Source: Xiphophorus maculatus (Eukaryota; Chordata; Actinopteri; Cyprinodontiformes; Poeciliidae). Taken from it: 64,000 nucleotides of DNA. Positions 4,725 to 62,922 of this stretch are shown here, piece by piece. The DNA is taken from assembly GCF_002775205.1 (NCBI RefSeq), contig NC_036456.1, forward strand, positions 23,945,968-24,009,967. The letters are read 5' to 3'. Position 1 is the stretch's first letter, and every line of letters begins with the position of its first letter. Under the pieces are notes generated by a model that saw only the letters and a program-made list of their open reading frames with translations, was not told the DNA's origin and did no database searches. Position numbers and translations under genes: made by a program.

Positions 4725-6856
4725 GCTGCAAGCAGCCTCGGGCGGCCCTCGCAGCAAGCGCCGCTCCGGCCTATTGGCCACCGCGGGGGTTCCAGCCACC
4801 GCAGAAGGTCTCGCACGATTTCCAGAGCCGCAGCCAACTCCCGACCGCAGAAGCTCCGCCGCAGTTTTCAGCACCGCCGCCCGCTAGCCACCGCAGAAGC
4901 TGTCGCGCATTTTCCCCGCCCGTCCACCAGGCGACACGCGTGAATGCGTTCGGCAGCGCTCCCCGACGACTGTCAAAAAATGTGGCGCAGATCGGTCGAT
5001 GCGTCGAGGAGATACAACCCATGTATTAACTTAGGGGGCGCAGTGGAGCCAAATTACATTTCAAACCCGTTGGGCTCTTTAGAGGTGAACAAAGGTCATA
5101 CAGATCCAGTTTGGCGCCAATCGGATGATCTATGCCTGAATAAGAGCCAAACGTATGCATATGGCGAGGGACTGATATTCGCCATTTGGCCACGCCCACA
5201 CGGTTCAGCCAGCAGCGAGCATTGACAGAGTTTATCATCCGAATCATCGTGATTAGGTCAAGAGAGCCATAAACAGAGCTTTCCAAGGAAAAAAATGGCA
5301 CTTCCTGTTGTGAGGGGGCGGGGCTTAGATGACGTCATAATGTGATGACGTAGGATCGACGGGCATACCACCAGGATTACTCAGGCAAAGTTTGATGCAG
5401 CTCGGTCAAAATATGTGGAATGTAGAGGCAAACGTATACGAACGGCGTTGCCGCCATTGAAAACACTTGGGACTTTAAAGCAAGCGAGACCAACTTCCTA
5501 TCTGTCATCCAACACAGAATCAACTTGATTAGGTCAAGAGAGCCATAAACAGAGCTTTCCAAGGAAAAAAACGGCACTTCCGGTTCCGAGGGGGCGGGGC
5601 TTAGATGACGTCATAATGTGATGACGTAGGATTGACGGGCAAGCCTCCAGGATCACTCAGGCCAAGTTTGATGCAGCTCGGTCAAAATATGTGGAATGTA
5701 GAGGCAAACGTATACGAACGGCGTTGCCGCCATTGAAAACTCTTGGCACTTTAAAGCAAGCGAGATCAACTTCCTATCTGTCATCCAACACAGAATCAAC
5801 TTGATTAGGTCAAGAGAGCCATAAACAGAGCTTTCCAAGGAAAAAAACGGCACTTCCGGTTCCCAGGGGGCGGGGCTTAGATGACGTCATAATGTGATGA
5901 CTTAGGATTGACGGGCAAGCCTCCAGGATCACTCAGGCCAAGTTTGATGCAGCTCGGTCGAAACATGTGGAATCTAGAAGCAAACGTATGGCATCGGCGT
6001 TACAGGTCACTTCGCCACGCCGCCACGCCCAGCTGCTATCTCAAAGCCGGTCGGGGTTGGAATCCTCAACACACCAACATGTCTTCTGTGTCTGGACACA
6101 GTTTCATGTTGATTAGGTCAAAGGGCTAAGAGAGCGACCGTTCACAGTAAAACATGACACTTCCTGTTCTCAGGGGGCGTGGCCTAAGTGATGTCATCAT
6201 TTGACCATATGGTATTGTAAGCCACCTGATGTCGATCAATCACTGAAAGTTTGGTCCCTCTATGTGCTTTTGTATAGGAAATATAAGAGTTTCGTGTTTC
6301 ATGGCGAGTAGGTGAACTTTGACCCCTGCTAACCCCCCTTCAACATGCTCCAAAACTCACCAATTTGATAACTTTAAATCAAACATGCCTTATGATCAGA
6401 CTGACCAAGTTTGAAGTCGATCAATCGAAATCCCTAGGAGGAGTTCGATCAAATACGAAGGCTGTAAACGTCAAAATCGAGGTAAAAAATGGACGTTCAA
6501 TACAAAATGGCCGACTTCCTGTGATAGTTGGCTTATAACATTAAATGTAAGTTCTGAGTCTTTTGGTGAGCTCTACATGTGTACCAAATTTCATGTCTCT
6601 ACGATGAAGTACGTTCATACCATTGTGTCAACAGAAAATTGCTAGTTGCTGCCGTTCAGCAATTTTTTTTGCGATTTTTGCGACAACCTTAAAATTCAAA
6701 ATTTTTAAATTTTCTAGTCGCCACCGCCAAGTTTGGTGAGTTTTTGAATATGATAAAGCCCCCAAAAAGGCTCCTCTTTAGGGGGGCAGAATCGTAATAA
6801 TAATAAGAAACAGTACAGAAACAATAGGCCTTCGCAGCGCTTTGCTGCTCGGGCCT
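4725..6856. mobile_element. Composite interspersed element with internal tandem repeats
   Basis: It begins GCTGCAAGCAGCCTCGG and ends GCTTTGCTGCTCGGGCCT, flanked by the direct repeat AATTAAA (4718-4724 and 6857-6863), which looks like a target-site duplication. Inside are three 276-bp tandem units plus a diverged 308-bp one, then a unique segment and a (TAA)n-AGAAACAGTAC tail. No open frame encodes a recognisable protein. Similar sequences are common in fish genomes, but I cannot name the class. Helitron-like ends are possible (see the findings). Confidence 0.6.
5251..6110. repeat. 276-bp tandem repeat units
   Basis: The anchor GATTAGGTCAAGAGAGCC recurs at 5251, 5527 and 5803, exactly 276 bp apart, and in diverged form at 6111. 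Each intact unit carries CACTTCC(G/T)G, GGGGGCGGGGC and TGACGTCA (at 5330, 5606 and 5882) within about 60 bp. The short antisense reading frames that recur at the same period are a by-product of the repeat. Confidence 0.85.
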
Positions 6857-18622: not shown

Positions 18623-21600
18623 TTAGTTTTTCTGAGATAAGTTGTCTCTCAGACAACTTATCTCAACCGGGATCAACCGGGTAAAGTTGCAAAATGTAAT
18701 GATGTTGCCCAAGTAAAGGCAAACTATTATCACTGCAAGTAAACCAACGGCCATATACAACCCAATCCTTTCCCGTTCTGTTGGCTTTGAAGGTTCTTCC
18801 TGAGTTTGAGACATGACAGCTGCAAAAAGATGAAACAAGAATGAATTCATCATTGCAGTTTTTACCAGACACACAGATTGTTTTTACCAGGAGACTTAAG
18901 AACAAAAAGGTGCTGAAACCATATTGACCTTCAGCAACTCCAAAAAAATGGCTCAACCCTGCAGAAAATTAGATTTGTTGACAAAATGTAAAATCGTTCA
19001 GGTGTTTGCAATAAACAAATCCAGCAAGAACTCCAATATTAAACTGATTTGATCTAAATTAGTGAATTAATTCTGCTTTCAATGGCAGCTGCGGCTTTGA
19101 ACTAAGTTAACCTCCTGAGCGTAAGAGCCTGCTTCTGTGAACAATATGTTGCCGAGGGCAACCAGCCATCAGGTGGCTGAGAAACAACAACTCACATACC
19201 TGGGTGTGGCAAGAGGAACTATTTTACAGCAGGTCAGTAAAAACCATCGACTGACTGCAGCAAGACAAAGAAATAAATGCTGAAGGGATCAATGTCTGAA
19301 CATTAAGTTTAACACCAGTAAAGACCCAAAGGCACAACTTATTTTATAGTCTTGCTCAAACTATAAAATAAGTCAAAGAGCTGTAGGGGTTGGGTGCTGT
19401 GAAGCCTCCTGATGCTCAGGCATTGGAAAGCAAGATGGAGGCATTTAAATAGAAAATCCAACCTTAACCTAAACAAGCTTATCTCAAAGTCCACAAAGGA
19501 CAGAAAATAAAGCATGACTTAAAAGAAATTTAACTTTGCAATTCAGTGGCTTGAAATTGGGCCTCTGTCTCTTTAAGAAGCTCCTGCTCTTTCAGACACT
19601 TCGCCTTCGTCATCACAACATGGATCCTCTATAAAGTATGTCAGTCAATCTCATGTACACACTGCTAAATGTTCTAATGGCGGAGGAACAACTCTTTGGT
19701 ACAGGAAAACCATTCATCTCTCGTCATTGGTGGCTATGCTAACTAGCCTTAGCACTCACAACAGTCTATGCTAGCTGCATCGTAGCAGCGAGCAAGGCGG
19801 AATGAACAACACCACCCAGGTCATTGACAGCAGTAAGACCCGCCTCCTGGCTCTGATGGGATGTTTCTAGTTGGCACTGAGAGCACTGGGAGGAGGCAGT
19901 GTTCCCAGTGTCTTCCATCTCATACCATACTGTCACAACATGGTGGCAGTTCCAACAAATATGTAAAAAAATCATTTATAAAAGTTAGATTAACCCTTTA
20001 AAGACATTTTTATCAGCGAGCTCAGCAGATACGCAATTCCACTGGGTGTTTGCTAACAGCTACTGGCTAGTCTGAAGGAGCTGCTTTGATCAGTTTTGTT
20101 TAATTCATTTTTTGCAGACAGCTGATAGTTTTTTTCTCTGCCAAACAAAAATGGAGTATTTGTTCATTAATTCAGGTTTTACCTGTATATTGTGACATTA
20201 TCTGTTACATGCATGAGTTTGTTTCCAAAAAGCAGAATTAAAACCAGATTAAAGATTTTTAAATGTATCTTTTGTTTGCAGGTGAATATAATACTGGTTT
20301 ATATTGGTCACACTTTGATTTGCATGTGTCAGTTTTTTTAAGCTTACCTCTGACTACAAGCTCCAGTTTTGTGAGGTTACTTCTTCCTTTAGTGGCAACA
20401 ATCCACTGATACCGTCCTGCGTCGCTCAGCCTCAGGTCAGACAGGAGACACTCAACCATCCCGTTCCTGAGCTGGGGGTCGCACTGGAGTCGACCTTTGA
20501 ACTGATCATCTGTGTGCGGGTCAGGCTGAAATCTGCTGTCATACAGATAAATACTCCTCAGTGGCTCCACGATCATCAGATCGATGTTCAGCCAGTCAGA
20601 GGAAGAGTTAACTGGACACAAAACCGTCAGTGTGACATTCGAGTGTTCGTCTGCTTGGTATTGTTGCTGAGTGTCGTTCACATCGAGTGGAGGTCTTCCT
20701 GCAGGAGTCAGAATGAAAAGATAAAGTCAGCTCTCATCAATATATTTGAAAAACTCTCTTTAAAGACGAGGAGAAACTGACTTAAAACCTAAACAACAAA
20801 CCCAAAGTGACCACCAAGCTCTCTGGCTTCATGCTGGTGCAACACAATTTATGTGGTGCTTAATAGTGAAGTGCACTGGCAGAAAAACTCCAAAACAAGC
20901 ATTTCAGAGTTTCAGTAAAATCTGAAATCTTTACTCTGATTCCCATTAATAAAATCAGTAGACTGGCACACTGCAAAAACACAAAATCTTACCAAGTATT
21001 TTTGGTCTTAGTGCATTTGAAACAAGACAAAATTAACTTACTAATAACTTTCCAGCAATGTAGGAGCTTATTTTTAGTAAATAAATCCTTAATATCAATT
21101 AAAAGAAAAGTACTAGTTCCACTGCCAAATTATTTCATTTACAGCAAGACATTTTTCTCATAAATGAAATAATGTGCCCTTGCAACTAGAACCTTTTTCA
21201 TCCATATTAGGGAAGCATTGATTTAAAAAGCTTCAACGTCTTACTGAAAAGTTGCTTGTAAGTTAGTTTTGTCTTGTTTTAAGTGTATTAAGATATTTGC
21301 AGAAACGTGGAAGACGATCAGATGAGACTCATCCAAAGTGGTGAAATAGCCTCTCATTGTTGCAGACATGTGACAAAAATTGCGTCATTTTGTTCGCAGT
21401 GTCATTCGTGTCTACTTCTCAACGCCAGGACCGGGTCCAACTATTTCAACAGAGATTTGTGCCAAAGTGTTGTGCGATTGGTCAGAGGTTTGTTGCCATG
21501 TTTTATGCAGAAATGTTCATATTTCTCCTCTACTCATTCGCTTCCACTATCCGTTTTTTGTATCCGCAGGAGACCTGAATACTTTCTGAGGAATGTTTAT

Positions 21601-22352
21601 CTGACACGATGAGGAATTATGTACATTTGTACGATTCTTGACTAAATAACCACAAAGACTGTTAACAGGCTCAAACTTTCTGGATGGAAGTTGCAACCTC
21701 TTTGTCCATGGAGGAGGCAGTCTGTCAAAAGACTCTTTGCATCCAATCTGAGTGAGATTAAGCTATTTTAGGATGAAATTCTTCAGTGTCTGGATGTGTA
21801 AAAACACACAGACATCCTGTAAAATACTGGTAGCTTAGCTGCAGTGAAAAGTAAGTGAAAACTTTGTCACAAAACACCTAAATATCATTTTTACCACTTC
21901 ACAATTATTCACCACTTGATGTTGGTCTAGTCACATAAAATCCCAATAAAATTCAACAGTTTGTGTTTGCAATGAAGAAAAATGTGAAGAAGTTCAACAT
22001 GTTCCTGGGGCCTTTAGCATGGAGCTCACATTACAGACACTACTTGTCTCTATATGAACTTTGCCATTGGAGACGATAATGAGGCCATATCAGCGTTTAG
22101 TTCACATTTCCTCACTTTTTCATAATAATTTATGCTTAAGGTTGGTTAAACTTCCTCAGAAAACAAAATTAACTAGATTTTTATAAACATTTCCTTATAA
22201 AGCACTTTGCGATGCTTATAAGGGTGTTTTATAAATAAAAGTGATTGATTGATTGATTTTAAAAGCAAATCAGAAGAAATCAGTTCCTCACCCTGTGCAG
22301 CAGGACACAGAGCTCCGATCAGCACCGATAACAACGGGACAATTCTCCACAT
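18623..22352 (-). CDS. Single Ig-domain type I membrane protein (B7/butyrophilin-like teleost family)
   Basis: Three coding exons read in phase: 22352-22292, 20698-20348 and 18819-18623, giving 202 residues. Exon 1 is a signal peptide (MWRIVPLLSVLIGALCPAAQ) and ends at a GTGAGG donor. Exon 2 is a V-type Ig domain with four N-glycosylation sequons (N28, N41, N51, N128), Cys48, the B7-like QFKGR, a Cys93/Cys104 pair and LSDAGRY. Exon 3 has a short stalk, a transmembrane helix at about 156-179 and a 23-residue tail. Both internal joins are phase 1, the usual Ig-superfamily phase. The canonical second Cys of Y-x-C is Trp119, so bonding probably uses other cysteines. A surface receptor or ligand is likely; the exact family is not certain. 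The tail ends inside a hairpin (18633-18665), so the true stop may differ. The second intron holds a common dispersed repeat (about 19560-19975). Confidence 0.7.
18633..18665. repeat. Perfect 15-bp hairpin in the last Ig-gene exon
   Basis: TGAGATAAGTTGTCT and its complement are separated by CTC. The stem spans the last codons of the predicted cytoplasmic tail. Confidence 0.8.
20969..21303. mobile_element. Long-palindrome MITE, copy 2 (in Ig-gene intron 1)
   Basis: It begins CACTGCAAAAACACAAAATC and follows the order of the copy at 11570 (ACTTTCCAGCAATGTAGGAGC, a central ATTATTTCATTTACAGC, AAAAGCTTCAACGTCTTACT). The right terminal CAGTG has been lost after ATATTTGCA. Confidence 0.7.
21860..22258. 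repeat. Tc1-like remnant and LINE tail with (TGAT)n
   Basis: 21880-21990 (TTGGTCTAGTCACATAAAATC, AAATGTGAAGAAGTTCAAC) is a degraded Tc1-like non-autonomous element. 22195-22258 (AAAGCACTTTGCGATGC, TTATAAATAAAAGTGATTGA repeated) is an L2-type LINE or SINE 3' end with its TGAT tail. Both lie in intron 1 of the Ig-domain gene. Confidence 0.5.
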
Positions 22353-22848
22353 TTTTTTATTTACCTGTAAACAAGAAATTAGATGTTAATTTTATTCACT
22401 TTAAATCGTGTTTAAAAACCTGCTTCCATTTCATCTGTCATTAAAACGACTAAATGTTGAGTTCAGTTTCACTTTTACGTTTTCACTCGGATCAGGTCTA
22501 GAAATGATGAATATATTATGAGCTGCACATTAAATAACATTTTTTTTAAAAACACGTAACCAAAATGAAAATAATTACTCCTTTAAAAAATTTAATTACC
22601 AAAAATACAAATAAAACAACATTAAACAAGCAGCGAGTTAAAAACATCACAAACATTTTATCATCAGTTATGACGAACATTAAAACAGACAAATCCAGGA
22701 GAGAAAATTTTAACCTTTTCACAGACATGAAGATTTTCTTGCAGATTGTTTACATAAAGGTCGATTCGGCGCAAAGACAGCTGCGCAACAACTCGCGTAA
22801 AATTACGCAGAGAAAAATTTCCAAATTTTCTTACGTGACTCTGCTCAC

Positions 22849-25202: not shown

Positions 25203-25560
25203 TGTTGTAAGGTAAAGGTAATTCTATTTATATAGCAGACTTTCAGCAACAAGGCAGTACAAAGTGCTTTACAGGAATTAAAAGGAAATACAAACAAAAT
25301 AACAAACCAAAGGAAAGAGAAGAAAAAAAAGGAGAGAAAAAGAATCTAATGTTGATCTAAAGTATGTAAGCTAGTTGCTCCTGTTCAGGGCTGCTAAGTA
25401 TCATCTGGTCTAATTTCAGTTCTGGGTTGGAAGAACAGGAGTCTAAAAATTAGTCTTGATCCAAAAGTGTCCTCTGGGCTTCTGGTCTCTGCAGTTAAAT
25501 AGTTTCTTTACAGTTTTTGTAAAAATAAGCTGAAGAGTGACCAAGTCTGTCTGCCAGTCT
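25203..25560 (-). mobile_element. Retroelement 3' fragment (reverse copy)
   Basis: 25203-25392 is the reverse complement of 34887-35065 (AAGGCAGTACAAAGTGCTTTACAGG etc. in one, its complement in the other). Wording in 25390-25560 (ACAGGAGTCTAAAAA, AATAAGCTGAAGAGTGACC) recurs at 59793-60330. It ends a few bases from the stop codon of the 397-residue gene. Confidence 0.6.
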
Positions 25561-25564
25561 GTAA

Positions 25565-26758
25565 CTAGCGCCAAAGACGACTTTTTGTCAGTTTTAGGAG
25601 CCCACCTACCAGTAGTGGGATCACCAGAACGGTTGCCAGGCCCACTTTAGGAGACGGCATCACAGCTCTTCCAAAGATAGATGCAGTATATTCATCAATT
25701 TTGTGATAAACTCTTCCTGCCTTTTGCTTGAAAGACCCAATAAAAGTGGTGCAATAAACCTGTTGATCCACATCGGTGGTGGAAGAACGTTCTGTAAAAA
25801 CACGGTCAGGTGAAACTTCTGCTCCCAGAGTTTCTGTCGCCTCAGTCAAGGCTCGATGACTGATATGAGCGATTAATTCCCTCATCTCGTCAGAATAAAA
25901 ATCCAACCTTACGGTGATTAAAGGATTTCTTTCTGGTATTTCAATCAAAACAGGATCTGCTAAAGTTAATGGGGTGCTTGCATAAAACTTCCTGAGTCCT
26001 GCAAATGTTTTACTAGTGCTGATAACATCATCGCTGGTCAGTGTCTCACCTTTTGGTATGGCTTCAATATAAGAACTTGTACTAGGAATCGGTAGGGTCT
26101 CTTCAGTAGTTGGTTCTGTTTCTGTCGGGGTTCTGAGGTCCTGTGGTTGGTCCAACCTGAGGTCCTGTGGTTGGTCCACCCTGAGGTCCTGTGGTTGGTC
26201 CACCCTGCGGTCCTGTGGTTGGTCCACCCTGAGGTCCTCTGGTTGGTCCACTCTGCGGTCCTCTGGTTGGTCCACCCTGAGGTCCTCTGGTTGGTCCACT
26301 CTGCGGTCCTCTGGTTGGTCCACCCTGAGGTCCTCTGGTTGGTCCACCCTGAGGTCCTGTGGTTGGTCCACCCTGAGGTCCTCTGGTTGGTCCACTCTGC
26401 GGTCCTCTGGTTGGTCCACCCTGAGGTCCTCTGGTTGGTCCACCCTGAGGTCCTCTGGTTGGTCCACCCTGCGGTCTTGTTGTTGCCTGTGGAAAAAGCA
26501 GAACCAACCTCCTCCACAGTAGACACAGTCAGCTTGATCTTTGGGAATATAAATTCCCATATCTCGAAGAGTTTCTCTAAGGAAGCGATCCATTTTCAGT
26601 TTTTGAAATGCAGTGGTCGGTCTGTTGCGTCTCACCGTGAGGTCCGGTTCTTGGTGGAAGAAGCAGAACCAACCGTCTCCACAGTATAAACAATCAGCTT
26701 GATCTTTGGGAATATAAATTCCCATGTCTCGAAGACTATCGTAAACAAAGCGATTCAT
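25565..26758 (-). CDS. Unrecognised membrane-anchored protein with duplicated Cys/His motif and octapeptide repeats
   Basis: One uninterrupted frame of 397 residues. The ATG at 26758 is the first in frame, after an upstream TGA, and has A at -3. Residues 1-35 and 56-90 are near-identical copies of a motif ending in DC-x2-C-x5-C-x2-H (YCGxGWFCFFH), which could bind a metal. Residues 95-206 are fourteen 8-residue units of the type DLRVDQPE. Residues 207-370 are mixed, starting with a Thr/Glu/Pro-rich stretch and including [20 protein letters not shown]. Residues 372-388 form one hydrophobic helix followed by a short basic end (LTKSRLWR), the layout of a tail-anchored protein. No signal peptide is present. 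I recognise no family. An RFX X-box lies 119 bp upstream of the ATG. The long intact frame and motif conservation argue for a real gene. Confidence 0.7.
26141..26476 (-). repeat. In-frame 24-bp coding minisatellite, 14 units
   Basis: Fourteen 24-bp units, each encoding D(L/R)R(V/L)DQP(E/Q). The variant positions are few, so the array is young or homogenised. Because 24 is a multiple of three and the unit lacks stops, other frames also stay open; those frames are not genes. Confidence 0.9.
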
Positions 26759-26876: not shown

Positions 26877-26889
26877 GTTACCTAGCAAC
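26877..26889. promoter_or_regulatory. RFX X-box upstream of the 397-residue gene
   Basis: GTTACCTAGCAAC fits GTNRCC-N1-RGYAAC perfectly and is joined to TTTGACGT, a CRE half site. It lies 119-131 bp before the start codon, where promoter X-boxes of RFX target genes usually sit. Confidence 0.5.
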
Positions 26890-29473: not shown

Positions 29474-32400
29474 CTAACGTGTGTGAGTCCTCATGTGATA
29501 ACGTAAATTAGATTTGCCTCGGAAACTTTTTCCACAAGTGGCACAAGAGAAAGGCCTCTCACCTGTGTGAATTCTTATGTGATAAGTTAAACTCTTTTTT
29601 TTACTGTAACTCTTTCCACAGGTCCCACACGAAAAGTGTTTCTCATCCGTGTGTGTTGTCATGTGAGTAGCTAAAAGAGTTGATTGACTAAAACGTTTCC
29701 CACAAGTATTACAGTTGAAAGGCCTCTCACCCATGTGACCTTTGGTGTGTGTGACTAAACCACCTTTTTGAGCAAAACCTTTCCCACAGATTACACATAC
29801 GAAAGGCTTCTCCCCTGTGTGAATTCTCATGTGATTGGTTAAAGTGTGTTTATAGGCAAATCTTTTTTCACAGGTTGTGCATGAGAAAGGCTTCTCACCT
29901 GTGTGAATTCTCATATGAATGTTTAAACAAGACTTGGTAAGGAAACGTTTTCCGCAAGCAGTGCATGAGAGAGGCTCCTCTCCGGTATGACCTTTCATGT
30001 GAATACCTAAATTACCTTTTTGAGAGAAACCTCGTCCACATGTCATGCACGAGAAAGGCTTCTCTCCTGTGTGAATTCTCATGTGAACAACTAAACTTTG
30101 GTTATTGGAAAAACTTTTTTCACAGGACGTACACGAGAAAGGCTTCCCACCCATGTGTATTCTCATGTGATTCTCTAAGATTGTTTTGTCATTGAAATTT
30201 TTTCCACAGGTGATGCACGAGAAAGGCTTCTCAACTGAGTGAGATCTCATGTGACTCTTTAAGGCACTTTTTTGATGGTGACCTTTTCCACAAGTAACAC
30301 ATTTGAATGGTTTTTCACCTGTGTGAGTTTTCATGTGATACATTAAACCACGTTTTTGACTGTAACCTTTTCCACAGGTTGAACATGTAAAAGGCTTTTT
30401 TCTTGTGTGAATTACCATGTGTTTAGTCAAGAAACTCTTTCGAGAAAAGGTTTCATCACAAATTTTACAAGAATACTTTTTTTTCTCTGGGTGAGCTTTC
30501 TTGTGCATTTTTTTTGCCACATCACTAAAAATGTCATCAGTCTCCTGTTTCAGCACAAGATGCTCTTCATCCTGACTGATGCAGAGTTGCTTCTCTTCCT
30601 CTTTGTACTCTTGATGTTCTGGTTCCTCTTGCTCCTGTTTTATCTGCAGAGGTTCTGGTTCCTCTTGCTCCTGTTTTATCTGCAGAGGTTCTGGATTATC
30701 TGGCTCCTGTTTTATCTGCAGAGGTTCTGGATTATCTGGCTCCTGTTTTATCTGCAGAGGTTCTGGATTATCTGGCTCCTGTTTTATCTGCAGAGGTTCT
30801 GGTTCCTCTTGTTCCTGTTTTATCCGCAGAGGTTCTGGATCTTCTTGATGTAAAGTGGAGTTCTCTTCCTGGTTGCTGAGCTCATTGAGAACCTCTTCCT
30901 CTTTACACACAAAGTTTTGGAGAAAATCTGGACAAAAAGACGAAACAAAAGCAATAAGGTATGGCCTGGCAAAAGGAAAATTTACTTTGGAGGGGAAAAG
31001 AGTTGTAGTTTACCAGGGTTTTGCATCGGAAGTGCTGGGTGTGTAACATGATAACTACAAAGGAGATGACAGTTGATTTCAGGAGGAACGGGATTAGATC
31101 AAACCCAATTTCCATCATGGGAGAAGAAGGTTTAGGTGGTTGAGGAATATAAATACCTTGGTTTTCATCTGGACAACAGACTGGACTGGAGATGCACCAG
31201 TGAAGCGCCTATAAGAAGAGACAGCAGGAGGACGCTAAGATCCTTCAAGGTTTGCACCAAGATGCTGCAGATCTTCTATAAGACTGTTGGTGAGAGCGTC
31301 ATCTCTTCTACTGTCATCTATTGGGGCAGCAGCACCAGAGCCAGGGACATAAAAAGGCTCAACAGTCTGATAAAGAAGCCTGGTTTTGTTCTGGTTCTGT
31401 TCTGGGGATGACTGTGGAACCTCTGGAGATGATTCTTCATAAAATGAAGAAAATTATGGGCAACCCTGAGCATCCTATCCACCAGACTGTGTTGGGAAGG
31501 CAGAGCATCTTCAGTCAGAGGCTTCTTCAGATCCGCTGTAATACAGTCTGCTACAAGAGATCTTCCCTGCCAACATCCATCACGATCTTCAATAAATCTT
31601 TGAAGAATCTAAATTAAGGAGTTACAACATTTAATGTCTCCTTGGGATTAATAAACTATTTTTGAATTTGAATTTTAATGAATACAATAACGGAAGGCAG
31701 GTTTTGACATAACAGATAAAGTTCTAGATCCCACACTCAACCAATGCTCAACTAATTTTAGGGAATCTTATGAGTGACTACAGGTGAAGCAACAAACGAC
31801 ATGGTGAGCAGAGGATTGGCAGTCAATGACAGAGTCTAGCTTGGCTGTAAATAACTATGTATTGCTTAGGGCAATTATTTATAAAATTAGTAATTTAGAT
31901 GACTCCACTGCTGTATTTTGTTGGTGAAGCAAATTGGCTCTAATTTAAGAAAGATTAATTTAGACTAATTGATAGAAGTAATGCTTTAGTAGCTTGAATT
32001 AGAAATCAACCTTTTTGAGAATTGATTCTAAAATGTAAATTATCGCATTTGAGTGCCCACAACAATACAGATCACCAGGGTTGGCTGGTAACTTTTCAAT
32101 TTAGCTATAAATGCTAAATAAATGCATACTGGTTGTATGATGTTTTTTTTTTACAAAAACATACAAAAAACCTGCAGGCACAATGCAGCAAGTATCCAGT
32201 TAAAGAAACAACTGAGCAACGTGCTGCCAGCCCGACTCCAGACGAGTTTCACAGGGGGGCAAAATTATTCTATGTAGCAATAATAATATAACTCAAGTAA
32301 AGAAAAAGATGCAGTGCAGTAAAACTACTCTTATAAATACATTTTTCCCAAAAAAGTTACTCAAGTGAAGGTAACAAGTACTACACACTTTTGAACATAG

Positions 32401-34886: not shown

Positions 34887-35065
34887 GTAACCCTGAACAG
34901 GAGCACCTAGCTTACATACTTTAGATCAACATTAGATTTTTTTTCTTTTGCTCTTTCCTTTGGTTTGTTATTTTGTTTGCATTTCCTTTTAATTCCTGTA
35001 AAGCACTTTGTACTGCCTTGTTGCTGAAAATGTCCTATATAAATAAAACTACTTTTTACCTTTAG
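34887..35065 (+). mobile_element. Retroelement 3' fragment (forward copy)
   Basis: Reverse complement of 25203-25392. It ends TTCCTGTAAAGCACTTTGTA ... TCCTATATAAATAAAACTAC, a typical LINE/SINE 3' end. Confidence 0.65.
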
Positions 35066-35109
35066 AATATTATTATATCAAGTTGTAGTTTTGTAGGATA
35101 TCGTTAAGT

Positions 35110-36279: not shown

Positions 36280-39200
36280 TCACTTGTGAATTGTCATGTG
36301 ACGATTTAAACTAAATTTGCTATGGAAGCTTTTTCCACAAGTCAGACAAGAAAAAGGTTTTTCACCTGTATGAGTTCTCATGTGACGATTTAAATTAGTT
36401 CTGCTTTGATAGCTTTTTCCACAATTCACACAAGAAAAGGGGTTTTCACCTGTGTGAGTCCTCATGTGAGACGTTAAACTAATTTTATTTAAAAAACTTT
36501 TTTCACAACTCGTGCATGAGAAAGGTTTCTCACTCATGTGAGCCACCATATGACTAGTTAACTGAGGTTTGCACCGAAAACTTTTTCCACAGGTCACACA
36601 AGAGAAAGGCTTTTCACCTGTGTGAATCCTCATGTGATAAACTAAACTGCTTCTTGCAATGTAACTCTTTCCACAGGTAATACACGTGAAAGGCCTCTCA
36701 CCTGTGTGACCTCTGACATGTTGATCTAAACAAACTTTTACAGGGAAACTTTTTCCACAGGTCTCACACAAGAAAGGCTTCTCACCTGTGTGAATCTTCA
36801 TGTGACTCAGTAACTCAAATTTGCTACGAAAACTTTTTTTACACGTCTCACATGGGAAAGGCTTCTCACCTGTGTGAATCATCATGTGACGTTTTAAATG
36901 AGACTTGGCTCTGTAGCTCTTTGCACAGGTCACACATGAGAAAGGCTTTTCACCTTTGTGAGTCCTCATGTGAGTGGCTAAAACTATTTTAGTGAAGAAT
37001 TTCTTTTCACAGCTCCCACATGAGAAACGCCTCTCAGTCGTGTGACTCCTCCTATGACAATTTAACTGAGATTTGGATGGGTAGCTCTTTCCACAAGTCA
37101 CACAAGAGAAAGGCTTCTCACCTGTGTGAGTTCTGATGTGATAAGTTAAAACAGTTCTTTGGGCAAAACGTTTTCCACAGGTCACACATGTGAAAGGCTT
37201 CTCACCTGTGTGAGTTCTGATGTGACAAGTTATACCAGATCTGTTAGTAAAACTTTTAGCACAGATAGTACATGAGAAAGGCCTCTCGCCTGTGTGACAT
37301 CTAATGTGTTGATCTAAATTATCTTTCACAGCGAAACTTTTTCCACAGGTCACACACGAGAAGGGCTTCTCACCTGTGTGAATTCTCATGTGACAAAGTA
37401 ACTTAGATTTGAATCGGAAACCTTTTCCACAGGTGCCACATAAGAAAGGCTTCTCTCCAGTGTGAATCATCATGTGGAGATTTAATCTGGGTCTACTCAT
37501 GAACCTTTTTTCACAGGTGACACACGAGTAAGGTTTCTCGCCCGTGTGAATTTTCATATGATTGTTTAAAGCTGATTGTCTACTGAAATTTCTCCCACAA
37601 TTAATGCATGAAAACATCTCCTTACCTGTGTGAGTCCTTACGTGAACATTCAAAGTACTTTTTTCAGGAAAATTTTTTCCACAGGTTGAACATGTAAACG
37701 GTTTTTCACCTGTGTGAATTCTCATGTGATAAATTAAACTGACCTTCTGAATGTAACTTTTACCACAGATTGAACATGTGAAAGGCTTCTTACCCGAATG
37801 AATTCTCATGTGTTTTGTCAGGTATCTGCTTTGAGAAAAGGTTTTATCACAAATTTTACAAGAATATAATTTTTGGTGTTGGTGAGCTTCCTTGTGTGTT
37901 TTTTGCTTTGAACTGTCAGTTTTACTTTTAGAATTTGTGGTTTTCTGACATCTCTCTTTTTGTTTCTGTTCTTCATCTCTCTTTTTTCCTGGATCTCCAG
38001 AATTGCTTCCTTCCTGATCCTGGTTCTCATCCTCAGCAGAGCCATGAGAGATGAGTTGGTTCCTCTGTGGTTCTGTTTCATTGTGGATTCTTTGCACATT
38101 AAGAGGATTCACCAAAATGTCATCAGTCTCCTGTTTCAGCAAAAGATGCTCTTCATCCTGACTGATGCCGAGTTGCTTCTCTTCCTCTTTGAACTCTTGC
38201 TCTTGTTTTATCTTCAAAACTTCTGGTTCCTCTTTTTCTAAAATGGAGTTCTCCTCCTTGGAACAATCTGTGAATTCAATCAGAACCTCCTCCTCTTTAC
38301 ACACCCAGCACTGTGGGAGATCTGCATAAAAAGACAAAACAAAAACTTTTAAATGTGAGTAAAAGAATGAGTCCTTCCCTTTAATCACTTGAAGCCTTTT
38401 CAAGAAATTCAAAGACTAAAATGACAAATTTATGAGTATGGAAATTAACTTAACCAATTTAGTCCTTCTGAACAGAAGGGAACTTCATGTCAGTCAATAT
38501 ATACTTTGGACCTTATGGTGAGGAAACAAAATGGCGACAGATAACCTAGTGGCTCCCCAACAGAAATATTCCAAACAGCAGCTTGATTTAATAATGTTAT
38601 AGTACCTTAGAGTCTTACACATAGTTCTACACTAAAAACCTTTTATGAACAGAACAGTTTGTTTTCTAGTGCACCTTAAAAAAAGATAAAATGAGCGTTT
38701 TAAATCCTGTTGATGCTTTTGGTAGGTTTCATGTCTCCATTCCAATCCTCTGCATAAAACATCTGTGGTTTGTTACTGAAACAATTCAAATTAAAGTTGT
38801 AAGCAACCTCAAATAGCCCTCGCAGCTCAGCAACGCTCTGGAGCATGTTGCAACTGCCAACATGTCACCGATCCACGAACTCCAACTCCACCAATCAATT
38901 CTACATATCGTCACTAAGCAATACATCGACAAAGACTCTATATTATGTTCAGTCAGGCTCAGCTTAGCTCCAAAAAGGAGCATTCAAAATTTGGCAGACA
39001 CCAAACCTTCTTGATGGAAGTTGTAGCCACTTCCTGTTTGGTGGCATAGGAGTAATTAAGACTTCCTGTAGAAAATTGCATTTGAGATTATCATCTGTTT
39101 TTAGAGAAAGACTGAATGTTCTGAAATATTTACCTAAGATGATGACATGGAGGGTCATTCACCACAGAAACCTGCGGCTTTTTTCTCAGTGGGTGATGTT

Positions 39201-44324: not shown

Positions 44325-47300
44325 CTAGTCTGTGTGAGTCTTCATGTGATGACTTAAAATACTTCTACGACTGTAACTCTTTCCACAGGTCCCACAAGAA
44401 AAAGGCTTCTCACCAGTATGAATCCTCATGTGATCAAGTAAATTTGATTTTGTCCGGAAACCTTTTAAACAAGTATCACAAGAGAAAGGCCTCTCACCTG
44501 TGTGAATTTTCTTATGAATATTTAAACCGATTTTTTGAGAAAAACTTTTCCCACAGCTCTCACAGGAGAAAGGCCTCTCACCTGTGTGAATTCTCATGTG
44601 ACGAGCTAAAACCTGTCTTTGAATGCAACTCTTTCCACAAGTCGCACAAGAGAAAGGCTTCTCACCTGTGTGAATTCTCATATGAGCATTTAAACTGCCT
44701 CTTTCAATGAAACTCTTTCCACAGGTCCCACAAGAGAAAGGCCTCTCACCTGTGTGAATTTTCATATGAGCATTTAAACTGCCTTTTTTAGTGAAACAGT
44801 TTCCACAAGTCCCACAAGAAAAAGGCCTCTCACCTGTGTGAATTCTGATGTGATAAGTTAAACTCTGTCTTTGAATGTAACTCTTTCCACAGGTCCCACA
44901 AGAAAAAGGCTTCTCCCCTGTGTGAATTCTCATGTGAGTAGTTAAATACTTTCTTTTACTGTAACTCTTTCCACAGGTCCCACAGGAGAAAGGGCTCGCA
45001 CCTGTGTGAATTCTCATGTGATGAGTTAAACTCTGTCTATGATTGTAACTCTTTCCACAGGTCCCACAAGAGAAAGGCTTCTCATCTGTGTGAATTTTCA
45101 TATGAGCATTTAAAGTGTCTTTTCGAGTAAAACTCTTTCCACAGGTCCCACAAGAGAAAGGCTTCTCATCTGTGTGAATTTTCATATGAGCATTTAAAGT
45201 GTCTTTTCGAGTAAAACTTTTTCCACAGGTGGCACAAGAGAAAGGCTTCTCACCTGTGTGAATTCTCATGTGATGAGTTAAAAGCTTTCTTACACTGTAA
45301 CTCTTTCCACAGGTCCCACAAGAGAAAGGCTTCTCACCAGTGTGAATTTTTATATGAGTATTTAAATTGCCTTTTTCAGTGAAACTTTTTTCACAAATCC
45401 CACAAGAGAAAGGCTTCTCACCTGTGTGAATTCTCATGTGCTGAGTTAAAGTCCCTCTTTCACTGTAACTCTTTCCACAGGACCCACAGGAGAAAGGCTT
45501 CTCACCTGTGTGAATTCTCATGTGTCTCTTTAAATAGTTGGTGTCATGAAAACCTTTTCCACAGGTCACACACATGGCCAGTTTTTCACCTGTGTGAATT
45601 CTCATGTGATAAATTAAACCATGTTTTTGTCTGTAACCTTTCCCACAGGTTGAACAAGTGAAAGGTTTTACTCCTGTGTGAGTTATCATGTGTCTCATCA
45701 AGTTACTGTTTTCAGAAAAGGTTTTATCACAAATTTTACAAGAATATAATTTTTGCCCTGCGTGAGCTTTCTTGTGCTTTTTTTGTTTTGAAGTGTCAGT
45801 TCTGCCTTTCTGCTCTTTGGTTTTCTCATATTTCTCCTTTTGTTTTTGTTCTTCCTTTCTCTTTTTTCCCGGGTCTTCAGAATTGATTCCTTCCTGATTC
45901 TGGTTGTCAGTTTCTGGAGAGCCATGAGAGATGAGTTGGTTCCTCTGTAGTTCTGTTTCATTAAGAACCTCCTCCTCTTTACACCCACAACATTGTGGGA
46001 GATCTGGACAAAAAGACAAAACAAAAGCCTTTAAATGTCAATCAAACTAGAAATCCTTCACTATAATCTCTTGATGCATCAAAACAGGATTTTCTTCGGT
46101 TATTCTAAAATCGCAATCTTACAAGAATGAACATTAACTCAACCAATGAGGTTCTTCCGACCAGAATGGAACTAGATGTGAGTCAAAATATGATATTATG
46201 GACCTCCAGGTGACCAAACAAGATGGTGATAGCTTAACTTAGTGGCTTAATCTAGTGGCTTCCATTCAAATATTACAAAAAGTTTTCTTCCTCTATGTAG
46301 CTTCAGGATATATATCACATTAAAGAATGACATAAAATCTCTAAAGCAAAACTATAAAGTAATTTTTAATCTCACCCACTGATATTGTCAGACATTGCTC
46401 CACTCAGACGCTCAACACAAACTTTCAAAAGCACGACTAAATCTCAGCCTTTACTTTCCTGCAATTCGCAGCCAAATTGGTAACAGTGGGGTGATTGTTG
46501 TTAACATGCAGAAAATAATGGCAAAATGATCCTATTGAAAATATTTGACATGGATGTTGGACACTTTGGAAGATTAAATATGAAATGGACAGTGATATAA
46601 TTATTTAAAGCATTTATTTAATACACAACTTATTAAATATGTCATTACATTATTAAAATGGAAACTTAGCCGCCAATTAAGACAATTATTAAATATACAT
46701 TTAATTGTTTTGATCATTATTATTATCGCCTGGTTCCAGTTCCTGCAGTGTCACCATAAAATAATTCCCCAGTCATAGTGGAGGGCGGGGCTAACATTGA
46801 CCTTCTCTAACTTAAATTTGGGTCGTTATTCTGTCAGAATAGCTTACCTGCATTGAGTACACATGCACAATAAAAGGTCTGCAACATACAGAGGAGCTAC
46901 AGTTCAGCATATGTGACAAGATACAAGAAATATGTCAATAAATTGTTTTTAATGATAATTGGATGGATAGTAGGGCTGTTGTAAATGAATATTTTAGTAA
47001 TCGAGTAATTGGATACAATAAATTGATCAAATTAAATATTGGTAAATCTGGCATAACACCAGTGTTACTTTCAGCTATCAATATCAGTCAGCATTTTTTT
47101 GTAGTTTAGAAAATTAATCTGTAAAAATAATGTCTCACTTTCAAAGTTAACCTGAAGAAAAGTTATACAAAGATTTTAAATTATATTCAATTTAATAATA
47201 AAGAGGCAGGCTCACAAAAACACTTATAAAAAATGTCTATGCTCCATCTTTTAGTTTATGTATTCATCTTCAGTCAGTTTAATGTATGAACTCTCACCTT

Positions 47301-49010: not shown

Positions 49011-52900
<3,890 letters not shown>

Positions 52901-52904
52901 GAGA

Positions 52905-53150
52905 GTTGCCCTCCACAGGTTGCTCTCCACAGGTTGCTCTCCACAGGTTGCCCTCCACAGGTTGCTCTCCACAGGTTGCTCTCCATAGGTTGCCCTCCGC
53001 AGGTTGCTCTCCACAGGTTGCGCTCCACAGGTTGCTCTCCACAGGTTGCGCTCCACAGGTTGCTCTCCATAGGTTGCCCTCCGCAGGTTGCTCTCCACAG
53101 GTTGCTCTCCACAGGTTGCGCTCCACAGGTTGCTCTCCACAGGTTGCCCT
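52905..53150. repeat. 14-bp minisatellite, about 17 units
   Basis: Unit TTGCTCTCCACAGG with few variants (CTC/CCC, CAC/CAT/CGC). Since 14 is not a multiple of three and the unit has no stop, every frame on both strands stays open; none of these frames is a gene. Confidence 0.95.
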
Positions 53151-53815: not shown

Positions 53816-55124
53816 CCTGATTTCCACACGACTCACACAAACACAACCCTAATGCGCTTCATGTAAGTGGAGCACAAAATCAACACAATGCTTATGAGCC
53901 ACACAAATGTGGACATGTTGTGTGTCTGACCCACACAAACACAAACACGCACAATGCAACACAGGCACACATATATATATTCCTACATAGCTTATTTCTT
54001 ACAAATGAAGTAAATCATAAAAATAGTAAAATAAATCCCAGCTAGTAGATATGAACGCTCCTCTTGCCGGTGCTCAGATTCTGTGTCTGTGACACCCAGA
54101 GGAGGTGAAATGATCCCATATGCCCCATTTATATTTTATTTGTAAATATTTCTGACAAACTGTTGTTGCACCAATTATTACAGTAGTTTAATTTTTAGCT
54201 TCACCGCACAGTCACATTTAGATATAGAAAAATCCATATTGGAATATTGGAATATTCCAATGTTAGCTATTGGAACAGTTAGCAGGCCATGACGGCAACA
54301 CTGTCTTTAGAAGACTGCTTGATACTGGATATTACGACATTTAATTTCTATTTACATTGAACTGAATTGGTGATTTGCTGATGCATATTGGAGCATTAAA
54401 TATTTGACCAATTCTGACATGTAGCAAGTGGTTACTGGACACTTTTGTTGTTCACACGTTGATTGATATGATTCCTTTGGAGCTGAACACAGTTCCCCGC
54501 CTGCTGCTGTTTACTCAGGATGATTTGCGTTCTCAGATCCTTTCTCAGGAATCATAAAGGTTTATGCAGGAAATTACAACACCGTCTCTGTCCTGAATTT
54601 CAAATATAGAGGCAGAGGCGAAGGATGAGACAAAGTCAGTTTTGCTTCGTTCTTTTCATATTTTTTTCAGTCACTTAAGGAACCGCAAAACTAATTTTGT
54701 GGTAAAATTCTGCAGAATTCATGTGGTTTGTTTCTAAGTCAGATCAGGATAAAAAATTCAAGCTTATGATTTTTTACTAAGTGTCCAGATGAAAAGCTAA
54801 CTGGGACTTAATGGCCAACATGGTGGAATACTTCAATAGAGGCTAAAAAGACGTTAGATAAACTGAATGCAGTTGACATAAACTTCAACTCCATGATGAT
54901 CAAAACATTTTTTTTTTTTTTGCTGATAATAAAAGAGTTAAAAAGTATTTTATTGTGATGTGATCTTCTATAAAGATCTTATCAGAAATAATTTCTTTAC
55001 CTGATGTAGAAAGATCATATGATTGTTAGAGAATAAATTCTCAGAAGGATGAAAGTTAGTCTCAGTTTGAACACAATCACACTGAAAATGTTCATGTCAA
55101 TGCAATATAATCCCGTGAGTCCAC
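53816..55124. other. Intergenic, nothing firm
   Basis: CACACAAA-rich simple sequence at 53830-53970; poly-T near 54905. The palindromic GGAATATTGGAATATTCC occurs at about 54240. No gene. Confidence 0.4.
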
Positions 55125-55908
55125 TATGAATAATTCAGCTCCTCCGGGGGAATCCCGAGGCGTTCCCAGCCCAGAGACATAGTCCCTCCAGCGTGTCCTG
55201 GGTCTTCCCCGGGGCCTCCTCCCGGTGGGACGTGCCCGGAACGCCTCACCAGGGAGGCGTCCAGGAGGCATCCTGACCAGATACCCGAGCCTCAACTGGC
55301 TCCTCTCGATGTGAAGGAGCAGCGGCTCTACTCTGAGTCCCTCCCGGATGACTGAGCTTCTCACCCTATCTCTAAGGGAGAGCCCAGACACCCTACAGAG
55401 AAAACCCATTTCGGCCGCTTGTATCCACAATCTCGTTCTTTCAGTCATGACCCAAATCTCATGACCATAGATGAGGGTGGGAACGTAGATCGACCGGTAA
55501 ATCGAGAGCTCCGCTTTTTGGCTCAGCTCTTTCTTCACCACGACGGACCGGTACAGCGCCCGCTTGACGGCAGACGCTGCGCCAATCCGCCTGTCGATCT
55601 CCAGCTCCCTTCTTCCCCCATTCGTGTACAAGATCCCAAGATACTTGAACTCCTCCACTTGGAGCAGGACACCCCCCCTGAACCGGAGAAGGCACTCTAC
55701 CCTTTTCCGGCTCAAGACCATGGCCTCGGATTTGGAGGCACTGATCCTCATCCAGGCCGCTTCACACTCGGCTGCGAACCGCTCCAGCAAGAGCTGCAGA
55801 TCACGACCTGATGAAGCCAATAGGACCACATCATCCGCAAAAAGCAGAGATGCGATCCTAAGGCCACCAAAACGGATCCCCTCAACACCTTGGTAAAAGG
55901 AGATAGGT
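55125..55908 (-). mobile_element. RTE-type LINE fragment (reverse transcriptase C-terminal half)
   Basis: An open minus-strand frame reads GIRFGGLRIASLLFADDVVL, with the catalytic FADD, then FKYLGILYTNGG, IYVPTLIYGHEIWVMTERTR and RPRGRPRTRWRDYVS. This order is typical of RTE elements of fish. Both ends are missing. The fragment abuts the Tc1-like element at 55909 without the Tc1 terminal bases, and the frame happens to run on into Tc1 sequence. This is a relic, not a host gene. Confidence 0.8.
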
Positions 55909-55938
55909 AAACACCTGGTTTTAGACCACAATAACTTA

Positions 55939-57132
55939 TTAGTATGGTGTAGGGCCTCCTTTTGCAGCCAATACAGCGTCAATTCGTCTTGGGAATGGCA
56001 TATACAAGTCCTGCACAGTGGTCAGAGGGATTTTAAGCCATTCTTCTTGCAGGATAGTGGCCAGGTCACGACGTGATGCTGGTGGAGGAAAATGTTTCCT
56101 GACTCGCTCCACCAAAACACCCCAAAGTGGCTCAATAATATTTAGATCTGGTGACTGTGCAGGCCATGGGAGATGTTCAACTTCACTTTCATGTTCATCA
56201 AACCAATCTTTCACCAGTCTCGCTGTGTGTATTGGTGCATTGTCATCCTGATACACGGCACCTCCTTCAGGATACAATGTTTGAACCATTGGATGCACAT
56301 GGTCCTCCAGAATGGTTCGGTAGTCCTTGGCAGTGACGCGCCCATCTAGCACAAGTCTGGGGCCAAGGGAATGCCATGATATGGCAGCCCAAACCATCAC
56401 TGATCCACCCCCATGCTTCACTCTGGGCATGCAACAGTCTGGGTGGTACGCTTCTTTGGGGCTTCTCCACACCGTAACTCTCCCGGATATGGGGAAAACA
56501 GTAAAGGTGGACTCATCAGAGAACAATACATGTTTCACATTGTCCACAGCCCAAGATTTGCGCTCCTTGCACCATTGAAACCAACGTTTGGCATTGGCAC
56601 GAGTGACCAAAGGTTTGGCTATAGCAGCCCGGCCGTGTATATTGACCCTGTGGAGCTACCGACGGACAGTTTGGTGGAAACAGGAGAGTTGAGGTGCACA
56701 TTTAATTCTGCCGTGATTTGGGCAGCCGTGGTTTTATGTTTTTTGGATACAATCCGGGTTAGCACCCGAACATCCCTTTCAGACAGCTTCCTCTTGCGTC
56801 CACAGTTAATCCTATTGGATGTGGTTCGTCCTTCTTGGTGGTATGCTGACATAACCCTGGATACCGTGGCTCTTGATACATCACAAAGACTTTTTAATAA
56901 TAATTCTTTATTTAATCAGGTAAACCCCGTTGAGATCTAGATCTCATTTTCAAGAGGGACCTGCTGTCTTGGTCACAGATGCGCCAGCAAGACGTGCACC
57001 AACAATTTGTCCTCTTTTGAACTCTGGTATGTCACCCATAATGTTGTGTGCATTGCAATATTTTGAGCAAAACTGGGCTCTTACCCTGCTAATTGGACCT
57101 TCACACACTGCTCTTATTGGTTCAATGTGCAA
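55939..57132 (-). pseudogene. Tc1-like transposase, disrupted
   Basis: Three broken pieces in order: an N-terminal helix-turn-helix part (57132-56950, EFKRGQIVGARLAGASVTK), a middle part (56852-56619, GRKRKLSERDVRVLTRIV) ending in a frameshift, and a long DDE part (56610-55939). The last shows the catalytic Asp in FSDESTF, the second in QDDNAPIHTA and Glu in NIIEPLWG, and ends normally. The LINE-tail insertion separates the first two pieces. No functional transposase can be made from this copy. Confidence 0.85.
56893..56961 (-). mobile_element. LINE 3' tail inserted in the Tc1 transposase
   Basis: On the minus strand GGTCCCTCTTGAAAATGAG, a GAGATCTAGATCTC palindrome, then ACGGGGTTTACCTGATTAAA and TAAAGAATTATTATT. 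This matches the short conserved 3' end of fish L2-like LINEs. The transposase reading is continuous on either side once it is ignored. Confidence 0.65.
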
Positions 57133-61002: not shown

Positions 61003-62432
61003 CTATGGCTTCTCATCAGAGTGAGTCTTCATGTGACGAGATAAATAACTTCTGTTACTGTAACTTTTTCCACAGCTCCTACATGAGAAAGGCTTCTCAC
61101 TTGTGTGAATGCTCATGTGATTAGTTAAAGTCCCTCGTTCACTGTAACTCTTTCCACAGGTCTCACATGAGAAGGGCTTCTCACCTGTGTGAATTCTCAT
61201 GTGAACATTTAAATTACCTGTTTGAGAGAAACTTTTTCCACAGATCCCACAAGAGAAAGGCTTCTCACCTGTGTGAATTCTCATGTGATGAGTTAAAGCC
61301 CCTTTTTCACTGTAACTCTTTCCACAGATCCCACAAGAGAAAGGCTTCTCACCTGTGTGAACTTTCATATGAGCATTTAAATGAGTTTTTAGGGAGAAAC
61401 CTCTTCCACAAGACCCACAAGAGAAAGGCCTCTCACCATTGTGAATTTTCATATGAACATTTAAATAATCTTTGCAAGAGAAACTTCTTCCACAAGACCC
61501 ACAATAGAAAGGCTTCTCACCTGTGTGAATTCTCATGTGAACATTTAAATGAGTTTTTAGGGAGAAACCTCTTCCACAAGACCCACAAGAGAAAGGCTTC
61601 TCATCTGTGTGAGTTATCATGTGGACATTTAGAGAGTCCTTTCGAGAGAAACTCTTTCCACAGGATCCACAAGAGAAAGGCTTCTCACCTGTGTGAATTC
61701 TCATGTGATAAGTTAAAGTCGCTCGTTCACTGTAAGTCTTTCCACAGGTCTCACATGAGAAGGGCTTCTCACCTGTGTGAATTCTCATGTGAACATTTAA
61801 ATGACATTTTTGACAGAAACGTTTTCCACACGACCCACATGAGAAAGGCTTCTCACCTGTGTGAATTCTCATGTGCCGAGTTAAAGGCCCTCTTTCACTG
61901 AAACTCTTTCCACAGGTCCTACATGAGAAGGGCTTCTCACCTGTGTGAATTCTCATGTGAACATTTAAAGTACCTTTTAGAGAGAAACGTTTTCCACACG
62001 ACCCACAGGAGAAAGGCTTCTCACCTGTGTGAATTTTCATGTGCCGAGTTAAAGTATGTTTTTCACTGTAACTCTTTCCACAAGTCCCACAAGAAAAAGG
62101 CCGCTCATCTTTGTGAATTCTTATGTGTCTCAGCAAGATATCTTTTTGAGAAAAGGTTTCATCACAAATTTTACAAGAATATAATTTTTGCCCTGCGTGA
62201 GCTTTCTTGTGCTTTTCTTGTTTTGAAGTGTCAGTTCTGCCTTCCTGCTCTTTGGTTTTCTCGTATTTCTCCTTTTGTTTCTGTTCTTCCTTTCTCTTTT
62301 TTGCTGGGTGTTCAGAATTGATTCCTTCCTGATTCTCAGTTTCTGCAGAGCCATGAGAGATGAGTTGGTTCCTCTGTGGTTCTGTTTCATTGAGAACCTC
62401 CTCCTCTTTACACACACAACATTGTGGGAGAT
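61003..62432 (-). CDS. C2H2 zinc-finger protein 4 (14 fingers), first exon outside window
   Basis: The exon starts after TTTTTGTCCAG with [20 protein letters not shown] and runs 476 codons to TAG. As in gene 3, VL joins directly to NETE-QRNQ and the acidic IKQE/ISQDEEH segment is missing. A Lys/Glu-rich stretch is followed by fourteen C2H2 fingers. Fingers 8 and 10 are nearly the same ([11 protein letters not shown]), and the [13 protein letters not shown] type alternates with a [12 protein letters not shown] type, suggesting two-finger duplications. By comparison with genes 2 and 3, exon 1 should lie 2.2-2.4 kb or more upstream, beyond 64000. A nuclear DNA-binding role is expected. Confidence 0.8.
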
Positions 62433-62922
62433 CTGGACAAAAAGACAAAACAAAAGCCTTTAAATGTCAATCAAACAAGGAATCCTTCACTTTAATCTCT
62501 TGATGCATCAAAACAGGATTTTCTTGGGTTATTCTAAAATTATAATCTTACAAGAATTAACATTAACTCAACAAATGAGGTTCTTCTGACCAGAATGTAA
62601 TTAGATGTGAGTCAAAATATGATATTATGGACCTCCAGGTGAGCAAACAAGATGGCGATAGCTTAACTTAGTGGCTTCCTGACAAATATTACAAAAAGTT
62701 TTCTTTCTCTATGTAGCTACACGATATACTGTATATGACATTAAAGAGTGACATAAAATGCCTTACGCAAAACACTAAATGGTTTTTTAATCTCAACCAT
62801 TGATATTGTCAGACATTGCTCCACTCACACACTCAACACAAACTTTCAAAAGCACGACTAAATCTCAGCCTTTACTTTCCTGCAATTCGCAGCAGAATTG
62901 GTAACAGTGGGGTGATTGTTGT
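62433..62922. other. Start of the intron of zinc-finger gene 4
   Basis: Collinear with 46004-46497 in gene 3 until GTGATTGTTGTT, where the LTR element begins. Confidence 0.7.

Follow-up and report, generated by a model that had tools for sequence, protein, structure and literature searches.

A probable gene for a putative tail-anchored protein with a duplicated Cys/His knuckle and a minisatellite-encoded octapeptide array in Xiphophorus maculatus

A long intronless open frame on the minus strand of this locus raises the question of what it encodes, and whether it is a gene at all: a protein of an undescribed type, an ordinary fish protein that nobody has named, a chance frame stretched by a minisatellite, or something left by a mobile element. 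The original prediction, made from the letters of the window (the whole stretch of 64,000 nucleotides that was analysed), described a single-exon protein with a duplicated Cys/His knuckle, an octapeptide array and a tail anchor, and regarded it as the best local candidate for an undescribed protein type.

The open frame and its coding status

The features of the frame and of its 3' flank are as follows.

25565..26758, minus strand: whole open frame, 397 amino acids and stop; ATG at 26758, stop ending at 25565
26654..26758, minus strand: knuckle copy 1, residues 1-35, with D22, C23, C26, C32 and H35
26489..26593, minus strand: knuckle copy 2, residues 56-90, with D77, C78, C81, C87 and H90
26133..26476, minus strand: 24-bp minisatellite found by TRF, 14 octapeptide units, residues 94-205
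25568..26140, minus strand: C part, residues 207-397, a mixed region followed by a membrane-like helix and a basic tail; no family
25595..25645, minus strand: hydrophobic helix, residues 372-388, 17 amino acids, Kyte-Doolittle mean 2.49
25568..25594, minus strand: C-terminal tail KLTKSRLWR, residues 389-397, net +4 by K/R minus D/E
25211..25357, no strand assigned: interspersed-repeat-like stretch in the likely 3' untranslated region, with similar sequence at about 34910-35077 (by eye)

The layout described in the original prediction holds on the minus strand, over 397 codons from 26758 to 25565. The 35-residue motif occurs twice, with DC-x2-C-x5-C-x2-H in both copies, the 14 octapeptides are present (13 with RVDQP and one with RLDQP), and a single terminal hydrophobic helix, residues 372-388, is followed by the basic end KLTKSRLWR, net +4. 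The term single-exon is correct as to the coding frame; an acceptor-like ctgtttgtcag directly upstream of the ATG, seen by eye, makes a spliced 5' untranslated exon possible. We rejected an intron removing copy 2, between the donor-like GGTGAG near 26636 and the acceptor-like TTTTTCCACAG at 26487, which would leave the remainder in another frame and without the membrane helix. A recent polyadenylated retrocopy was also rejected, no poly(A) tract adjoining the 3' end being seen by eye. Beyond the stop, AATAAA/ATTAAA signals are present at about 24.7-25.2 kb.

Upstream of the ATG the frame stays open to 26809 and measures 414 codons from stop to stop, as compared to a longest frame of 233 codons (mean 153) among 40 first-order Markov sequences of 64 kb with the neighbour frequencies of the window. 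The figure of 414 codons is helped by the array, since the DNA of the array is open in several frames and on both strands, and the C part alone, 191 codons, falls inside the range of the random longest frames (up to 233 codons). The non-repeat DNA carries stops in the other five frames, 2-7 in the N part (330 nt) and 8-14 in the C part (576 nt).

A comparison of the two knuckle copies also bears on the coding status. Residues 1-36 and 56-91 are 78% identical across 36 columns, and all four candidate ligands are kept in both copies. Over residues 9-35, a segment picked after the data had been seen, only 7 base differences separate the copies and give 2 residue changes, where the null mean is 5.2 (P 0.0065); over residues 1-35 only 15 base differences give 7 residue changes, where the null mean is 10.7 (P 0.018), and in both cases stop codons count as changes under the null, with no distinction made between transitions and transversions, which may raise the expected number. 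The dN/dS of copy 2 against copy 1 was 0.39 for the 35 residues and 0.14 for residues 9-35. With reserve as to the simple null, the comparison suggests that the protein has been under selection ever since the duplication. It is probable that the open frame is a real gene, since the copies differ at 2 positions in residues 9-35 as compared to the 5.2 expected by random substitution. Coding status and selection on the protein are supported with moderate strength.

Knuckles, array and membrane anchor

Structure prediction had been proposed as a check. AlphaFold2 run on the single sequence gave a poor model of the whole protein, with a mean pLDDT of 45.3 and a pTM of 0.23; the last helix (residues 370-395, about 52-68) and both knuckles (about 61-70) stand out in it. 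Each knuckle copy is modelled as a helix (3-11, 58-66) and two strands (21-26/29-34, 76-81/84-89), the blocks having a pLDDT of about 61-70. Residues 206-374 lie below pLDDT 50, and the C part besides the anchor is essentially unmodelled, at very low confidence. In copy 1 of this low-confidence model the first strand carries C23 and C26 and the second C32, with H35 directly following. The paired 3-Cys/1-His hairpins may form a metal-binding docking head.

The array amounts to 14.3 copies of 24 bp at 26133-26476. Its earlier description as a long spacer stands as far as the presence of the array goes; it does not extend to selection on the array, for which there was no evidence, three of the four variable codon columns altering the residue. 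As evidence of function the array is weak, being a 24-bp minisatellite confined to one gene. The 20-base core of the repeat unit, with at most one mismatch, had 11 matches in the genome, all of them inside the array, and the control had 0.

We searched the fish's own genome (704,300,149 bases in 101 contigs, the window being 23945968-24009967). The first 103 residues matched only themselves at E up to 0.001 (one candidate scored), and residues 207-397 matched only themselves at E up to 10 (two candidates scored). The DNA pattern for CxxCGxGWFC had two exact matches in 704 Mb, both inside the frame, and the reversed control had 0. Distant relatives in the genome could escape such searches, since these score the best candidates only. 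Within its own genome, the knuckle, the array and the anchor part are each found in one gene only, which makes it most likely that the array grew in place.

The hydrophobic helix near the C-terminus has nine residues beyond it, and the best 17-residue stretch ending before residue 360 reaches a mean hydropathy of only 1.02. By hydropathy alone, no hydrophobic N-terminal stretch of the kind expected of a signal peptide was found. One C-terminal membrane-like helix, a short basic tail and no comparable stretch elsewhere make a layout that supports the earlier reading of a tail-anchored protein facing the cytosol, and a membrane anchor at the C-terminus is strongly suggested as a prediction. An AKAP-type anchoring helix was considered and rejected, the strict pattern being absent from the protein.

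In the passages of PMC5450235 that concern targeting, hydrophobicity of the helix points to the ER, and a tail of strongly positive charge to peroxisomes or mitochondria. The ER example given there has a helix hydropathy of 2.4, and the ACBD5 constructs have a tail charge of +4.9 when peroxisomal and +2.9 when mitochondrial. The helix described here, 2.49, is as high as that ER example, and the tail, +4 by a simple count, falls between the two ACBD5 values of PMC5450235. The target membrane is therefore ambiguous, the hydropathy favouring the ER and the tail charge a peroxisome or mitochondrion.

Upstream region and neighbours

One feature upstream of the frame deserves comment.

26877..26889, no strand assigned: RFX X-box-like site, GTTACCTAGCAAC on the plus strand and GTTGCTAGGTAAC on the minus strand; 118 bp upstream of the ATG

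On the plus strand GTTACCTAGCAAC fits RTNRCC-N-RGYAAC, which a passage in PMC2375033 gives as the most restricted RFX consensus, and it is the sole site of that spacing in the window. The restricted consensus at that spacing is expected 0.29 times per window, and at least one was present in 23 of 100 shuffles. Across three spacings the restricted X-box has 5 distinct sites in the window as compared to about 0.85 expected, an excess, and the most degenerate consensus shows no enrichment (31 sites against 38.9 expected). PMC2375033 also cautions that the presence of an X-box ahead of an ATG has no predictive value on its own. The site at -118 hints at ciliated or germ cells, and it could be there by chance.

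A second long intronless frame of the window, 50795-52297 on the plus strand (500 amino acids, coiled coil; Pfam DMPK_coil 23.7 bits, cut-off 22), also has a restricted X-box, 200 bp upstream. That both long intronless frames should have such a site within 250 bp upstream has a P of 0.00024 under random placement, in a test set up after the data had been seen. Of 20 upstream stretches fetched for this family, an X-box-like site was present in six, those of the closest copies of the frame, and in none of the other 14. The support that this frame lends to the X-box is weak, since 14 of the 20 stretches are without the site. The family itself is very large, matching at 109 places in the genome (two in the case of some genes; the best 86 of 393 candidates were scored). 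It is clustered on several contigs; many members have open frames 400-700 codons long, and some contain stops.

Other features of the window were observed alongside. An X-box-like 15-mer at 19148-19162, GTTGCCGAGGGCAAC, fits on both strands. The sequence CCTAGCAACAGGTG we take to resemble the HLA-DRA X box; an MHC class II-type promoter was rejected, an S or Y box not being seen by eye beside CCTAGCAACAGGTG. On the minus strand, 18626-22385 may hold an immunoglobulin-type receptor gene in pieces, namely a signal-peptide-like frame at about 22176-22385 (by eye), a V-set-like frame at 20262-20726 (E 0.018, below the cut-off) and a membrane-helix-like frame at 18626-18883 (by eye). Four long C2H2 zinc-finger frames were seen by eye, all on the minus strand, at 29474-30910, 36280-38412, 44325-46019 and 61003-62448; the first of these overlaps a 36-bp repeat at 30616-30847, which codes for an EPLQIKQE-type repeat. 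Two further tandem repeats are an array of 14 bp at 52905-53147, with 17.4 copies and open in several frames, and one of 276 bp at 5241-5989, with 2.7 copies and 95% matches. Finally, a reverse-transcriptase-like remnant at 55092-55982 lies against a Tc1-type transposase-like frame at 55939-56610, both on the minus strand and seen by eye.

A possible tether, its rivals and related systems

The earlier statement that no family could be recognised is supported, in that none of the Pfam-A models reached its cut-off for the protein or its halves, and none of those in NCBIfam did so. All Pfam matches stayed below the cut-off; the array drew Cornifin and a phage trimerisation domain, and the knuckles DUF7296. 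The match to DUF7296 (PF23969) reached 22.2 bits for the whole protein and 24.9 bits for the N part, below the curated cut-off of 27 bits, and the single knuckle copies scored 17.4 and 17.3 bits. With typed probe copies, the match was lost on changing C23, C26, G27 or W30, kept at 17.2-18.4 bits on changing C32, H35 or P17, and weakened by a triple change of L9, M12 and G13 (14.1 as compared to 17.3 bits). The likeness is mainly one to the C-x2-C-G-x2-W core, since the match is independent of C32 and H35, and such a core can arise independently. Other matches of the N part below the Pfam cut-off were zf-CHCC, 13.1 bits, and BIR, 12.4 bits; the C part had no Pfam match up to E 1. The zf-3CxxC family was not among the Pfam matches of the whole protein up to E 10, or of the N and C parts up to E 1, and NCBIfam gave matches far below the cut-off only.

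No credible relative was found in PHROGs (best E 0.3) or among PDB sequences (none, or E 2.2). Pattern searches gave 12 matches in IMG/VR, 0 of them confirmed as relatives, and 88 in GTDB genomes, with no confirmed relative; the E. coli genomes gave no match. Phage and plasmid records matched within the array or at E 0.6 and weaker, among the matches listed, one of these searches giving the best 20 of 43 records. These collections say little on orthologues, since none of them is meant to hold fish. A literature search found no mention of DUF7296 and, among the titles listed, none on such a protein.

Our best explanation, which we put forward tentatively, is a real gene, present once and with no intron in its coding frame, whose product is a cytosolic tether anchored by its tail and bearing paired metal knuckles. 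The product would be made in the cytosol and inserted into an organelle membrane by its C-terminal helix, residues 372-388, everything besides this helix facing the cytosol. Each of the two N-terminal 3-Cys/1-His hairpins, with a short amphipathic helix before it, would hold a single metal ion, zinc being the likeliest, and the pair would serve as a docking head. The stalk, about 112 residues long, flexible, acidic and grown from repeats, may let the head reach a distant partner, and the role would be that of a membrane tether or adaptor. The X-box-like site in the putative promoter would suggest use in ciliated or spermatogenic cells. The metal, the membrane, the tethering, the partner, the organelle and the cell type are all parts that we infer.

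It is quite conceivable that the frame encodes an ordinary uncharacterised protein, common to other fish and already listed as hypothetical, in which case little except the lack of a name would be new, and this is compatible with the tether mechanism. The constrained N-terminal motif is what would be expected of an older family, and the only fish genome covered by the searches was the window's own. No result contradicts this reading; a well-described vertebrate family is less likely, since Pfam-A has no model above the cut-off for the protein or its halves.

A bolder version of the tether is doubtful. It would be a tail-anchored tether under RFX control, restricted to one lineage and belonging to the sperm or ciliated cells of fish; its paired 3-Cys/1-His metal knuckle would be of a new type, and the 24-bp coding minisatellite would set the length of its stalk, which would differ from one individual to another. 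Should the gene be real and limited to certain fish, its product would be an orphan membrane protein whose small metal motif is unrecognised and whose stalk can change length, and a tractable case of how a new tether originates, from a duplicated head, a minisatellite stalk grown in place and a membrane anchor. If it is common to many fish, it would be one more unnamed family.

We consider it improbable that the frame is non-functional, either a chance frame lengthened by the minisatellite or the decayed copy of some other sequence. The many open frames of the array on both strands and the modest length of the C part, within the random range, would fit, but a single frame of 414 codons runs through N part, array and C part, stops occur in the non-repeat DNA in the other frames, the residue changes between the copies are fewer than expected, and a second copy was not found in the own genome. 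There is similarly little to recommend a protein derived from a mobile element or virus: the coding frame is intronless, stands amid transposon remnants (by eye) and belongs to no recognised family, but one copy was found in the genome, the IMG/VR matches were not confirmed, and the phage and plasmid matches listed lay in the array or at E of at least 0.6. In amniote receptor transporter proteins (RTPs) the N-terminal zinc finger is followed by a variable stalk and then a membrane helix. A tail-anchored member or offshoot of the RTP zinc-finger proteins would share this order of parts, but it is very improbable, zf-3CxxC not being among the Pfam matches and the fish RTPs in the analysis excerpted from PMC8172065 being without a membrane helix.

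Compared with known systems, the tentative tether resembles each in part. With DUF7296 (PF23969) it has in common the C-x2-C-G-x2-W core, aligned in both knuckle copies with 24.9 bits for the N part, but the score stays below 27 bits and covers only half of the ligand set, C32 and H35 being irrelevant to it. The retroviral-type zinc knuckle, C-x2-C-x4-H-x4-C, is likewise a very short four-ligand metal motif, but differs in spacing and ligand order from the C-x2-C-x5-C-x2-H described here. CDGSH iron-sulphur proteins such as mitoNEET have an N-terminal anchor. They too place three Cys and one His on a membrane-anchored cytosolic protein, but the ligand spacing and the position of the anchor differ, and no such Pfam match was obtained here. 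RTP4 and the other receptor transporter proteins have an N-terminal Cys-rich finger and, in the amniote forms, a membrane helix, but zf-3CxxC was not found here and the fish RTPs in the analysis excerpted from PMC8172065 lack the helix. Judged by its sequence, the predicted protein fits the loose class of tail-anchored proteins, and falls outside DUF7296 and the RTPs. Like the members of that class treated in passages of PMC5450235, for example ACBD5, FIS1 and GDAP1, it has a single C-terminal helix, a short basic tail and a bulk predicted to be cytosolic; no sequence family common to it and these proteins was found, and what sets it apart is the duplicated Cys/His head carried on a minisatellite stalk.
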